From: Spiroplasma diminutum CUAS-1
Lineage (GTDB): Bacteria; Bacillota_I; Bacilli_A; Mycoplasmatales; Mycoplasmataceae
NCBI RefSeq assembly: GCF_000439455.1
Contig: NC_021833.1
Span: 744,001 to 808,000, forward strand
Length of the DNA stretch: 64,000 nucleotides
Direction: 5' to 3'
In this document: piece by piece, positions 9,548-15,326 of the stretch
How positions within the stretch are numbered: position 1 is the stretch's first letter
Layout of the letters: each line of letters opens with the position of its first letter
Notes under the pieces: generated by a model
Databases searched by the model: none
What the model saw: only the letters and a program-made list of their open reading frames with translations
Told to the model about the DNA's origin: nothing
Program-made: the position numbers and the translations under genes

Positions 9548-10240
9548 TTATTTATTTTTTTTAATTTTAGATAATGCATTCTTTGCAGCTTCTTGTTCAG
9601 CTTGTTTTTTGTTACTTCCTTGACCTGTTCCATACACCATTCCTTCAAGAACTGCATTAACAGTGAAAAGTGTAGTATTATTTTCAAGTTTTTCTTGATT
9701 AGAAATTACATATGATAGTTCACTTCTTACCTCTAATTGAATGAGTTCTTGTAATTCAGATTTAAAATCATGAGATTTATCCAAGAATTGATTAATTACA
9801 TAATCACTAAAAATAGTTTTTTCTAATCATTGATTTAAAACAAATTCACCTTGATCTAAATATATTGCAGCTGTCATTGATTCATAAACATCAGATAAAA
9901 TAGAGTCTTTTTCATAACCCTTTGAATCAAGTTCGCCAACACCAAGCCTAATTAATTTACCTAATTTAATTTTTCTTGATATTTGTGCTAATGTTTCTTT
10001 TTTAACAATTGAGCTTCTATATTTAGTAAGTAATCCTTCATTTGATTTTGGAAAAAGTTTATAAAGATATTCACTTACTTTCATCTGTAAAATGGCATCT
10101 CCTAAAAACTCTAATCTTTGATAGTTTTTAGTAAGTCTATTTTCATTTGAAAATGAATTATGAGTTAAAGCTTCATTATAATGAGTTGAATCCTTAATTT
10201 CAATTAAAAATTCCTTATAAAGAAAATCTCTAATGTTCAT
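9548..10240 (-). CDS. rnc: Ribonuclease III
   Basis: 230 residues. Endonuclease for double-stranded RNA that processes rRNA precursors and structured mRNAs. Catalytic domain with signature RLEFLGDAIL at about 42-51 and the second acidic motif around DVYESMTAAIYLD; a C-terminal dsRNA-binding domain (about 155-228) with the conserved GQGSNKKQAEQEAAKNAL. The ATG overlaps the plsX stop as TAATG. The plsX-rnc pairing is common in Firmicutes, where smc usually follows; here a terminator and new promoter separate it from smc. Confidence 0.97.
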
Positions 10241-11244
10241 TATTCTGCTAAAGCCTTTTTAAGCTTATTCACAACATCATTTTTTATTGCATTATATGTC
10301 ATTTTTAAAGTAGCATAAAATGCAACTTTATCACTTGAACCATGTGATTTAAAAGCTATACTTTTTGTTCCAAGTAAAATTGCACCAGCATGATTTTTAT
10401 AGTCAAATTTTGCTGCAACTTCTTTAAAAGCTTTTCTTAATCTTAAAGCTGCCAATTTTCTAAAAATATTTTTTGTAAGTGCTGTTTTTATTTCAGTAAG
10501 TAATGATTTACCCATTCCTTCTGCTGCTTTTAAAGCAATATTTCCTGTATATCCATCAGTTACAACAATATCAACTATTCCACTTGCTAAATATCTTGAT
10601 TCAATATTTCCAAAAAAATTAATTTCTTCATGATCTTCAAGTAATTTATATGCTTTTTGATGAAGTTCCATTCCTTTTGATTTTTCTTCTCCAATATTTA
10701 GTAAAGCAACTTTTGGATCTTCTACACCATTAACAGCTTTTGAATAAGCTGTAGCCATAACTGCAAAATTTACTAAATCCTCTGGATCACATTCTAAATT
10801 AGCACCAACATCCAATAATAAAGTTATTTTTCCTTTTACAACTGTAGGAATTACTGGCATAAATCCAGGTCTTTCAATACCATCTATTTTTTTTAAGATA
10901 AAGTGACACCCCGCTATAAATGGAGCTGTTGCTCCCCCAGTAGTTACACCGTGTGCTTTTTCATCTTTTACTAATTCAAGTGCTCTTACCATACTTGAAT
11001 CTTTTTTTCTTCTTATATCCATAATCCCATCAGTCATTTCAATTACTTCTGTTGTATTATAAATTTCCACTTGATCTGGATTATGTTTTCTTGATGAAAG
11101 TTCTTTTTTCAAAGCTGCTCCATCTCCAACAAAGATTATTTTTAAATCTTTTTGTTCACCTAAAAGTTTAATAGCAGCATCTACTGCTGGAATTAAACCA
11201 TTATCTGAACCCATAACGTCAAACGCTATTACTTTGTATTCCAT
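10240..11244 (-). CDS. plsX: Phosphate acyltransferase PlsX
   Basis: 334 residues, normal length. PlsX interconverts acyl-ACP and acyl-phosphate. In organisms that take up fatty acids, FakA/FakB make acyl-phosphate directly for the acyltransferase PlsY and PlsX links that pool to ACP. Conserved N-terminal AFDVMGSDNG, central TTGGATAPFI and C-terminal GYTGNIALKAAEG are all visible. RBS CAGGAGAT precedes the ATG. Its own near-consensus promoter lies directly upstream. Confidence 0.96.
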   Translation of the reverse strand: MEYKVIAFDVMGSDNGLIPAVDAAIKLLGEQKDLKIIFVGDGAALKKELSSRKHNPDQVEIYNTTEVIEMTDGIMDIRRKKDSSMVRALELVKDEKAHGVTTGGATAPFIAGCHFILKKIDGIERPGFMPVIPTVVKGKITLLLDVGANLECDPEDLVNFAVMATAYSKAVNGVEDPKVALLNIGEEKSKGMELHQKAYKLLEDHEEINFFGNIESRYLASGIVDIVVTDGYTGNIALKAAEGMGKSLLTEIKTALTKNIFRKLAALRLRKAFKEVAAKFDYKNHAGAILLGTKSIAFKSHGSSDKVAFYATLKMTYNAIKNDVVNKLKKALAE

Positions 11245-11296: not shown

Positions 11297-11331
11297 AAAA
11301 AATAAAACCTTTTAGTTTTATTTTTTATATT
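11295..11331 (-). terminator. Terminator of the Cys-rich gene
   Basis: A/T-rich hairpin AAAATAAAACT/GTTTTATTTT followed on the - strand by a run of eight T. It overlaps the last codons of the gene. Confidence 0.7.
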
Positions 11332-11536
11332 TTATTTTATTTTCTTGTTGTCTTGCGCTTCCATTATTACAACAAGGGCATTGTTTTGTTAAACATACCT
11401 GGCAGCTAATACATTTTAGACAACTTTGACATCCATGGAATGAACCACTACATACTCTACAAGTATAGCAGTTATGAGCTCCTCCAGGACAACAAGCATC
11501 AGATGATACTTGATTATTTTGTTTTGGCAATGGCAT
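11318..11536 (-). CDS. Cysteine-rich small protein (13 Cys in 72 aa), unknown function
   Basis: 72 residues, 13 of them Cys, at 15, 16, 23, 26, 29, 36, 39, 42, 45, 48, 53, 55 and 56. From 23 to 48 they are spaced almost entirely as CxxC, with five in strict three-residue register from 36 to 48. Two His (21, 34) are nearby, and the tail is basic. No membrane segment or signal peptide. The pattern implies binding of several metal ions or Fe-S clusters. It does not match the classical ferredoxin spacing (CxxCxxCxxxCP) or a standard metallothionein, so no function is assigned. RBS GGGGG, a near-consensus promoter and its own terminator support a real, well-expressed single gene. Cysteine is otherwise rare in neighbouring proteins. 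Confidence 0.85.
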   Translation of the reverse strand: MPLPKQNNQVSSDACCPGGAHNCYTCRVCSGSFHGCQSCLKCISCQVCLTKQCPCCNNGSARQQENKIKYKK

Positions 11537-11562
11537 ATTTATACCCCCTTATATATAAGATA

Positions 11563-11591
11563 ATTATACATAATTACTAACTTACTAGCAA
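11563..11591 (-). promoter_or_regulatory. Promoter of the Cys-rich gene
   Basis: On the - strand: -35 TTGCTA (11586-11591), 17-base spacer, -10 TATAAT (11563-11568). The -35 lies within the last codons of the upstream permease gene. Confidence 0.8.
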
Positions 11592-14500
11592 TGTTAGAGG
11601 TCTTTTTTTAATTTGCAACATAGCCGCAGTTCATCCAATATATAGTATTGCTCCCAATATTATTGCAGAAACAAATGGTATTCAAGGCAATGTTGGTAAA
11701 GCAATTAATACTTTAAACCTTTCCCAAACAAACATCTGAATTCCTTTTCAAACTACAAGAGAAGTTATAAATGCAAATATATAACTTATTGCAGCTCCTG
11801 TCACATATTTACCCATAACCATTCAATTAATTTGACCATTTGTATATCCAAGTGATCTCATAATTGTAATAACATTGATTGAATCAGTAATTATAATATT
11901 CATAATAACTACTAATAAGATAATCAATAAAACAACATCAATTATAATATACATTAACATAGCATTTGTCATTTTTCCAAGTACTTGATTAATAACTGAT
12001 TTTAAAATTGGTAGTGTAATAACTGATGAATCCATAAAGAAATTAGATGCATCTGGTTTTTGTGGACTTATTGTTTTATCTCCAATTATAATATTTGGAA
12101 CCATTATGCTTGCTAATCATGGTTTATTTTCTGATGAAGCAATTGTATATGTATCTCTAGAATAATAAAAATTCTTTCTACTTTTTGCAATATCTTTTAG
12201 ATCAATCGTTCCTTCACTTGCAACTTTTTTACTAATAATTGAATTAAATAGATATTTTTGATTATCTTTAGTTTCTTTTGTTCCAACTTTATCCATCACA
12301 ACAGTGTAGTCTGCATAAATATCTTGAAGCAATGTATCATTTCCATTTATTGCAGCTACTCTAACTTTTAAATTAACATCTTTTCCTATAACAATATCAA
12401 AAATATCTCCAACTTGTTTATTAAGAAGCATAGCAAGTCTATAAGAAATTACAGAATTTACATATTCATGATTTTTTTCTTGTAATTGATTCATTAAACT
12501 ATCAGTTAATGAATCAAAGTTAACAACACTTCGAGCATCTCCACCAAATTTTCCACTTGCATCAATTAATCTTACTAAAGAGCTTTCTGAATCAATGTCT
12601 GTATTATTTTCAATATGATAAGAAAGTGTTGTTTGAAGTGCTTCTATATTTCCATTAAATAAAATTTCATTTACACTTAATAAAGAATTAATTCCTTCTT
12701 TCATTTTTGCAAATGTTGATATAAGCGTAATAAAATTAGAGTTAAAGTTAATTTGATTTTTTCTTGTTTGTTGACCAGGAGTTAATATTTTTTCTAAATT
12801 ATCATCTAAATATTTTTTATATGATTCAACATCATTACAACTTCCTTTATATCCTACACTTAAAGGCGAAATACAAGCAAATTTTCCAATATCGTCAATA
12901 AATATACCTGACATATCTTCTGGTGTTATATTTCATAATGAATCTTTTGGTATATCTTCAATTGAAGGTATATTAATATCTGATTTTATATTTGTAGGTA
13001 GATTTGTTAAGGGAGTAATAACTGCACTGATACTAGATGCAGCAGATAATGCTAATACAGTTTCTTCACTTTGATTAATGTAACTATCTCTGAAACTTGA
13101 CAAATTAGTCATTAATTTTGAAAAATTATTTGTAGTTTTATATTTATCTTCAGTACTTGTTTTTACAAAATCAACTATATTTTTATCGCCTATATTATTA
13201 TAATTTATATTATATTTTTCCTTTGTACTATCTTCGCTAATAGTTCCATTTCTAGTTTTAATTGGAACAACAGTTTTAAATCCGTAATAATGATTTACAT
13301 CTTTTGCATATATATTATAACCACCTTCAATCATATTTTTAATAATTGGCATGGCTCTTAATTGTAATGTAAATAAGAATGAACTGAATATAAACAATCC
13401 CATAATTATTACAAATTTACCTTTTCCTGCAGAAACAAAAGCTTCTTGCATTCTAAAAGTGAATCCTTTATTTCTACTTCTTAATATTTTCAAAATAATT
13501 CAATTTACTAATGAATAAATTAAAGCAGGGAAGAAAATAATCTTTAAAATTAAAACAATATAATCAGATTTTCCTTTTTTAGGACCATTTGTTAACAATG
13601 ATAATGCTCCCTCATTTAAAAACTTAAATATAATTAAGTAACTAAGTATTGAAAATAGTATTGGAACAATAAGAATCAATACAAATAAAAATATAGGAGA
13701 AGCGTATATAACATTGTAATCAAATATTACAAAAGTACTAAATTGTTTTGTAGCTGAATCTATTTGAAATGGAAAAGACAATAAATATCCAATTCCAATT
13801 CCAATAAACATAGTTAAGAAGGTTTTTAAAGAAAATACTCAAGTAAGTTCACTTGTTTTATAACCAAGTGATTTGAATACTCCCAACTGCCTTCTTGTAT
13901 TATTAATTTCTTTCTTAAGAACAAATAAAATAAACATAAATCCTAATACGAATAAAATACTTCCAATTGCTAGATATATTCAAGTAATTATATATAGATT
14001 TGTTAAAGAATTTATTACACTATAGTCTTTAATATCCTTAAACAAAACAGATCCTGGTGGAACAATTGAAATTTGCTCGTTTTCTCTAATCACGTTTATT
14101 GCATTAATATTTTTAGAGGAAAAAATTGAATTTAAATTATAATTTTTATCATTTTTTGAAATAAAAGTTTCAACTTTGTAAGCTAAACTAAATCCTGTTG
14201 TTGCTTGCATTTTTCAATCATCTGGTTGAAAAATTTCTTTAAATGAATAACCATCCTTTGCTTTATTTTCAATAAAAAATGTATTTTTCATAAAAATTTG
14301 TCCATAGTCTTTAATTGAATCTGTAAATGATGAAAAATTTATTGGTGTTAGTGTTGAATATTTTAAACCAATTCCAACAATTGTAAATTCCTTAGTATTA
14401 AGATTTTTACCACCTTCATACAATTGATCAACTCCAAGTAAAATTTTATCTCCTATTGCTTTTTTCTGATTTTTTAGAAATGCATCACTTACAACAATTT

Positions 14501-15326
14501 CGTTGTTTTCCTCAGGTAATCTACCTTTTTGTAAAACAATATTATTTATATTTAATTTATCATCATTACTTAATGAAGTTGCACTTGAAATATTATATAC
14601 ATAACTCTCCTTTGAGTTTTTCATCATTTTGAAATTTGCATTTGCAAAATTTTCATATTTAAATGACCCATTTGATTGTTTTTCCAATTGGTCTAAAATT
14701 GAATAAATAACATAATTATATAAACTTCTATTATTAGAATTATTTACTCCAACCTCAGAAAGTATTTTTTTTGCATTATTAGTAAATATTTTTCCTACAG
14801 AAAAACCCTCAACTTCATCTGTTGAATTAATATTAAATCTTTTTGTAGTTACATCATCTCCATTTGAATAATACATTCAAATTAAAGAACTTATAGCTCT
14901 TATAGTTTCTTGCTTTTTTAGTTCTATTAATTCTGGACTCTCTGTTTGGTCTTTAAATTCATTATCAACATAGTCTTTAACAAGTTTTATTGCTTCGGGA
15001 GTAAATCAACTTTTATTGTTTTCATCTGAATTTAATTCTGGAACTGCTAAGTTAAATTCCATACCTTCATAATTAAATTTAACTTCTTTTCCATTTCAAG
15101 CATACTCATAAATAAATTCATCATCAAATCAACCTCTTGAATTTCATTGAGTTTGTCACAAATTGGTTTCCTTTTTTACAGATGTTGCTTTCAATGATAG
15201 TTGTAATGGAGTTGCCAACATACCAAATATAAGCATGGTAAAAATCATTAAAAACGCAATTGTTCCTAATGTTTCTACCCAAGCCTTTACAAAGGCTTTC
15301 ATATATGATTTAAAAATATTTTTCAT
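11577..15326 (-). CDS. FtsX/MacB-type ABC transporter permease, large
   Basis: 1249 residues across many in-frame TGA Trp codons. One N-terminal membrane segment (about 14-40) and a large extracytoplasmic domain (about 45-430). A first FtsX-type cluster of three to four helices follows (about 450-605), including the coupling-helix region RRQLGVFKSLGYK. Then a fresh membrane segment (about 625-645), a second large external domain, and a C-terminal FtsX cluster containing the parallel IMRSLGYTNGQI. This two-repeat layout is that of lipoprotein- or peptide-handling MacB-like permeases of Mollicutes. It needs an ABC ATPase, and none lies next to it. Substrate unknown. The ATG is preceded by AAAGGAAT; a membrane protein gene ends 26 bases upstream. 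Confidence 0.85.

Follow-up and report, generated by a model that had tools for sequence, protein, structure and literature searches.

The described proteins that come closest to the one reported here are the copper storage (Csp) proteins, the iron-sulfur ferredoxins, the zinc-finger and zinc-ribbon proteins and the bacterial metallothioneins. Csp proteins (DUF326) are four-helix bundles of more than 100 residues, in which about 13 cysteines stand in register along the helices. Our protein likewise has 13 cysteines in register, but it is only 49 to 72 aa long and gives no Csp match. The 2[4Fe-4S] and single-cluster ferredoxins (Fer4) resemble it in size and in their CxxCxxC motifs, and the variant CxxCRxC occurs in some ferredoxins; unlike them, it has as many as 13 cysteines and no CxxCxxCxxxCP motif. 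Zinc-finger and zinc-ribbon proteins share with it CxxC pairs, a conserved histidine and arginine and a basic character, but five of its cysteines follow one another in consecutive CxxC steps and its core is 31% cysteine, which far exceeds the usual density of zinc fingers. The bacterial metallothioneins SmtA/BmtA, Pseudomonas PsdMT and mycobacterial MymT are, like it, small and cysteine-rich with histidine among the ligands, so that a metal-thiolate cluster would be expected in our protein too; it differs from them in the spacing of its 13 cysteines, in giving no profile or sequence match to them and in occurring in Spiroplasma only. Ordinary metallothioneins also accept more change between their cysteines, and the non-cysteine residues of our protein are more strictly conserved than theirs. 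The clusters that such small proteins can build are illustrated by the Pseudomonas PflQ2 metallothionein, which forms Zn3Cys9His and Cd4Cys9His clusters (PMC7387436).

Identification of a cysteine-rich gene

The window that we analysed is a stretch of 64,000 nucleotides from Spiroplasma diminutum CUAS-1, and it lies inside a single-contig genome of 945,296 bp. On its reverse strand the open reading frame at 11318..11536 (read from 11536 to 11318, stop codon included) encodes a cysteine-rich protein of 72 aa, hereafter T, with the sequence MPLPKQNNQVSSDACCPGGAHNCYTCRVCSGSFHGCQSCLKCISCQVCLTKQCPCCNNGSARQQENKIKYKK; because the frame contains no TGA codon, the protein is the same under genetic codes 4 and 11. 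T is present as a single copy in this genome, and inspection of the sequence by eye revealed neither a signal peptide nor a membrane segment. Its 13 cysteines occupy positions 15, 16, 23, 26, 29, 36, 39, 42, 45, 48, 53, 55 and 56, its histidines are residues 21 and 34, and residues 36-48 (11393..11431, reverse strand) read CxxCxxCxxCxxC. Such a content is far from what the window would predict: cysteine makes up 0.69% of the residues in its ORFs longer than 150 aa, the probability of at least 13 cysteines in 72 residues at that frequency is about 4e-15, and the next-richest of its 246 ORFs has at most 5 cysteines in any 42 residues. Since only 0.5% of shuffles with the 13 cysteines fixed in number contained CxxCxxCxxCxxC, the register is also unusual in its own right. 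All 13 cysteines and the invariant His21 fall within a core of 42 residues, C15-C56 (11369..11494, reverse strand), delimited from the alignment and its column counts, and this core corresponds to nearly the entire 49-aa form of the protein found in the citri clade.

T is a real gene, as indicated by its orthologues in all genomes of the genus, by substitutions that are mostly synonymous and by conserved signals around it; among the first 60 genomes searched, 26 already gave a match. The probability that we are dealing with a chance ORF or a pseudogene is negligible, this reading being refuted by the same conservation.

Evolutionary constraints on the cysteine-rich core

Twelve of the 13 cysteines, together with His21, are found in at least 32 of the 33 aligned sequences. 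Invariant in all 33 are C15, C16, H21, C23, C26, R27, C29, C36, S38, C42, I43, C45 and C53, while C39, C48 and C56 have each been lost once and C55 four times. Constraint extends to residues other than cysteine, as P17, H21, R27, S30, G35, S38, I43 and K51 are invariant or almost so across clades. The proteins of the Apis and citri clades are about half identical, and both keep the CC pair, the CxxC motifs and H21. The earlier note had described 13 cysteines with five of them in strict CxxC steps; both the number and the CxxCxxCxxCxxC block were confirmed, but the block is not strict, because C39 is replaced by serine in one Apis-clade species and C48 by tyrosine in one mobile copy, leaving C36, C42 and C45 as its invariant members. 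The groups 23/26/29 and 53/55/56 that it listed are where it had placed them, C15 and C16 being absent from its list, and of the two nearby histidines that it pointed to both are present but only His21 is invariant, His34 not being conserved. That note had also made its reading depend on the cysteine spacing being kept in relatives, and kept it is.

Comparison of the 42-codon core in the window with that of close Apis-clade relatives gave pN/pS values of 0-0.06 in several pairs and higher values with increasing distance, these figures being approximate owing to near-saturated synonymous sites. In close Apis-clade pairs the core has changed less than plsX, rnc or smc: between the window and the relative G002, for instance, nonsynonymous differences in the core amount to 2% per site, and the proteins encoded by plsX, rnc and smc are 76%, 73% and 75% identical, respectively. 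The citri clade, too, shows strong constraint, with pN of 0.02 at a pS of 0.61 (L072 versus L075).

Taxonomic distribution

Orthologues of T were found in 20 of 20 genomes of its own genus (g1, which is the Apis clade of Spiroplasma), in the three small genera g6, g7 and g9 that are its sisters and, as the short form of about 49 aa, in 13 of the 14 species of genus g8, which we take to be the citri clade and which appears to include S. phoeniceum (G435) and S. poulsonii (G436). One of these 13 copies is a frameshifted remnant (G438), and in the fourteenth species (G434) no T was found. In searches of 395 genomes of the class and of 320 genomes of the order, T was not found in the other genera of the family (g2-g5 and g10-g12) or in other Mollicutes, with the exception of one genome (G050) of another family, f9. 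The surroundings of fakA in g12, g11, f9 and G434, and those of ispG in g12 and G434, were inspected for diverged copies, and none appeared. When 84,980 species were scanned with two peptide patterns, only Spiroplasma was returned; these patterns are liable to miss diverged forms, and genomes near the window may have been left out of the scan. Phage and viral collections contained no relatives. One further match, in G613 (E = 9e-4), was rejected because it scored 19 bits and contained two stops.

By these searches T is confined to Spiroplasma. The search across Mollicutes that the earlier note proposed did find relatives with the cysteine spacing, but the range it had in mind was too broad. 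Some species lack T or have only a broken copy, so it is not essential everywhere.

Genomic context and mobile copies

In the window T lies about 40 nt from an upstream gene for an FtsX-type permease of 1249 aa (11577..15326, reverse strand) and is followed by plsX, of fatty acid and phospholipid synthesis (10240..11244, reverse strand), and then by rnc and smc; we take these neighbours as context only. The permease adjoins T in the Apis-clade loci that were read, where T is mostly 37-54 nt behind it and usually ahead of plsX-rnc-smc. In g6, g7 and g9 there is no permease, and the genes flanking T are fakA and plsX. In most citri-clade genomes T is located 46-124 nt after ispG and is convergent with a gene for a dual-specificity phosphatase. 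T thus persists while its neighbourhood changes. No recognisable metal transporter or metalloregulator was seen among the neighbours, and no partner gene conserved across clades was found beside T.

Several features of these loci may be recorded separately. The very large permease is evolving fast, at 36-63% identity, much faster than the genes around it. In G012 an ORF of 291 aa with repeated PVQQAT units adjoins T (L051 7245-8117). The ispG gene next to the short form in G432 (L070) consists of two overlapping pieces, owing to a frameshift or a sequencing error.

The T copies of G306, of S. phoeniceum (G435) and of G050, which belongs to another family, are close relatives of one another (pS 0.16-0.24). 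The FakA protein of G050, unlike its T copy, is just 50% identical to the g6 query, and the membrane protein of 275 aa beside T is 92% identical between G050 and G435. In G306 (L066) T appears to follow conjugation-like genes and a gene with an S1 RNA-binding domain, which ends 39 nt before this mobile copy, and to precede the gene for a likely secreted protein with a HELGH motif. Close copies across families, a divergent FakA, a nearly identical neighbour and a conjugation-like setting together point to horizontal transfer of this branch. The 275-aa membrane protein lies about 20 nt after T (L063 and L068) and has no Pfam match. The short form is also carried by the S. citri plasmid pSciBLH13-1 (L033 5001-5138), where no gene is listed for it, and we call it unannotated provisionally, as the gene table of the plasmid is incomplete. 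This plasmid copy is close to genes for fib, YitT, endonuclease IV and a phosphatase, part of the chromosomal neighbourhood thus being present on the plasmid.

Transcription and translation signals

A promoter-like sequence, TTGCTA-17-TATAAT, precedes T at 11563..11591 (reverse strand), with TATAAT at 11563-11568. The motif scan found 7 promoter-like sites in the window against 8.0 in shuffled sequences (sd 3.0), so that by itself it shows no excess; the -10 element owes its credibility to the relatives, since in 13 of 16 loci of the Apis clade TATAAT is found again 32-39 nt ahead of the start, although these relatives are not independent of each other. The near-consensus promoter that had been noted earlier is in this sense there, and its -10 recurs, but the window scan does no better than shuffles. 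The ribosome-binding site and the terminator noted with it both hold. AAGGGGG (11544..11550, reverse strand) has its first base 14 nt ahead of the start, and such a site is present in most Apis-clade loci. An AT-rich stem-loop with a U run (11297..11326, reverse strand) overlaps the last codons and the stop; its 13-bp stem leads into the U's with -8.8 kcal/mol and z = -4.27, and similar stem-loops are found behind most orthologues. Strand-specific RNA-seq data for S. diminutum and S. taiwanense have been published (PMC5726471; SRR3466528-SRR3466531), with sense-strand medians of 324-400 RPKM.

Comparison with known families and structures

Searches of Pfam, NCBIfam, PHROGs and PADLOC gave no significant match to T, and a PDB sequence search gave chance matches only. 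Specifically, no match to a metallothionein family or solved metallothionein, to Csp or to other metal-protein families was obtained in Pfam, NCBIfam or the PDB sequences, nor was a zinc-finger profile of Pfam matched. None of the 33 members matches the Fer4 profile, and the CxxCxxCxxxCP motif is absent from their alignment. AlphaFold models are of moderate confidence (pLDDT 71 for the long form and 68 for the short form) and contain short helical segments only, with no sign of the four-helix bundle of Csp, and a Foldseek/VIA search with the long-form model found no fold match, none being in the PDB. This agrees with what the earlier note had stated, namely that the protein fits no ferredoxin, zinc-ribbon or metallothionein spacing familiar to its author. 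The Spiroplasma literature on metallothioneins and on cysteine-rich and small proteins yielded nothing about T.

The short form, of about 49 aa, is 27% cysteine, is almost devoid of aromatic residues, carries a net charge of +5 to +8 and leaves no space for a further domain; over all members the net charge is +3 to +9. Composition is the most informative evidence on what T is, and its cysteine density and scarcity of aromatics are of the metallothionein kind.

Functional interpretation

Taking these results together, metal binding is most likely what T does, and we give a probability of about one half to its being a small cytosolic, metallothionein-like metal-thiolate protein specific to Spiroplasma, which would serve as an intracellular reservoir or donor of zinc or copper. 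The 31% cysteine core, the invariant histidine, the net positive charge and the near lack of aromatics in the short form argue for it, as do the T-specific -10 element, ribosome-binding site and terminator retained in differing neighbourhoods and the existence of plasmid and mobile copies. As the known bacterial metallothionein families are unmatched by profile or sequence, T should be said to work like a metallothionein, not to be one. The 13 cysteines and His21 would hold some 3-4 Zn2+ ions, or several Cu+ ions, arranged as a single cluster or as two, and the basic residues would offset the cluster charge. Against this reading count the lack of metal genes among the neighbours, the lack of a family match, the moderate AlphaFold confidence, the loss of the gene in some species and a conservation between the cysteines stricter than in ordinary metallothioneins. 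Strong conservation extends to the residues that separate the cysteines, and for this reason T probably has a fixed fold and may have one partner protein. Carrying this further, we suggest tentatively that T may found a new metal-thiolate family whose cluster topology would also be new (13 Cys and one His in a 42-residue core) and may act as a lineage-specific metallochaperone, not as a passive metallothionein; the near-fixation of its core would then stem from its supplying metal to a single specific Spiroplasma partner or from its giving that partner structure.

The same near-invariance of P17, H21, R27, S30, G35, S38, I43 and K51, with purifying selection acting on the entire core, could also be read as that of a compact multi-zinc structural protein, a zinc-finger-like adaptor for RNA, ribosome or protein in which the metals hold the fold and are not stored. 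The basic charge would suit such a role, as would the S1-domain gene ahead of a mobile copy, a neighbour that only the mobile copy has. This possibility we hold to be appreciable but doubtful, since so dense a cysteine core is unusual for zinc fingers, no Pfam zinc finger matches and no partner gene accompanies T across clades. It is rather unlikely that T carries [4Fe-4S] clusters, whether to transfer electrons or to act as a cluster scaffold, for instance on behalf of IspG/IspH, although two CxxCxxC stretches, one of them CxxCRxC, and the position behind ispG, a 4Fe-4S enzyme gene, in most citri-clade species would fit it, as would the fact that T-positive genomes of the family are nearly always ispG-positive and that a SufU/IscU-type scaffold is encoded in 24 of 24 genomes tested. 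A canonical small 4Fe-4S ferredoxin is nevertheless encoded separately in the window genome, in the T-positive G024 of another genus and in the T-lacking G030, and the presence of T does not follow that of ispG: in three g12 species and in G434 there is ispG but no T, G438 has ispG with only the frameshifted remnant of T, and G050 and the incomplete G025 have T with no ispG detected. The distributions of ispG and fib in the family are nearly alike, which explains the co-occurrence by common descent, and 13 cysteines are more than a ferredoxin needs. The iron-sulfur reading is on these grounds possible but less likely than the metal-thiolate one. Least probable among the functional readings is a thiol redox buffer or radical scavenger with no firmly bound metal; the high thiol content would allow it, but the invariant His21 and the fixed cysteine spacing suggest metal coordination and not free thiols.

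Two more specific proposals were dropped along the way. The idea that T supplies the ferredoxin missing from the MEP pathway was weakened by the canonical Fer4 protein, by the T-lacking genomes with ispG and by the near-identical distributions of ispG and fib; flavodoxin was also sought as another possible donor, but none of 24 genomes had one at the threshold used, and the result did not discriminate. A connection between T and the fibril protein Fib was rejected because the Fib-positive genera g11 and g12 have no T, shared ancestry being the explanation. The Fer4 protein of the window genome is a single-cluster, ferredoxin-like protein of 60 aa (L094 963-1142, reverse complement) encoded near a cytidylate-kinase-like gene, and a similar pairing occurs in G030 (L096).

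Conclusions

T has no name in the libraries and literature that we searched. Mollicutes genomes are very small, and most helical Spiroplasma keep this gene under tighter constraint than SMC or PlsX, so that T should matter for life in arthropods, the hosts of Spiroplasma with T being insects and ticks. If T is a metal-cluster protein, it would present bioinorganic chemistry with a new cluster topology and would provide Spiroplasma with a dedicated metal reservoir, relevant to the competition for metals with the host.
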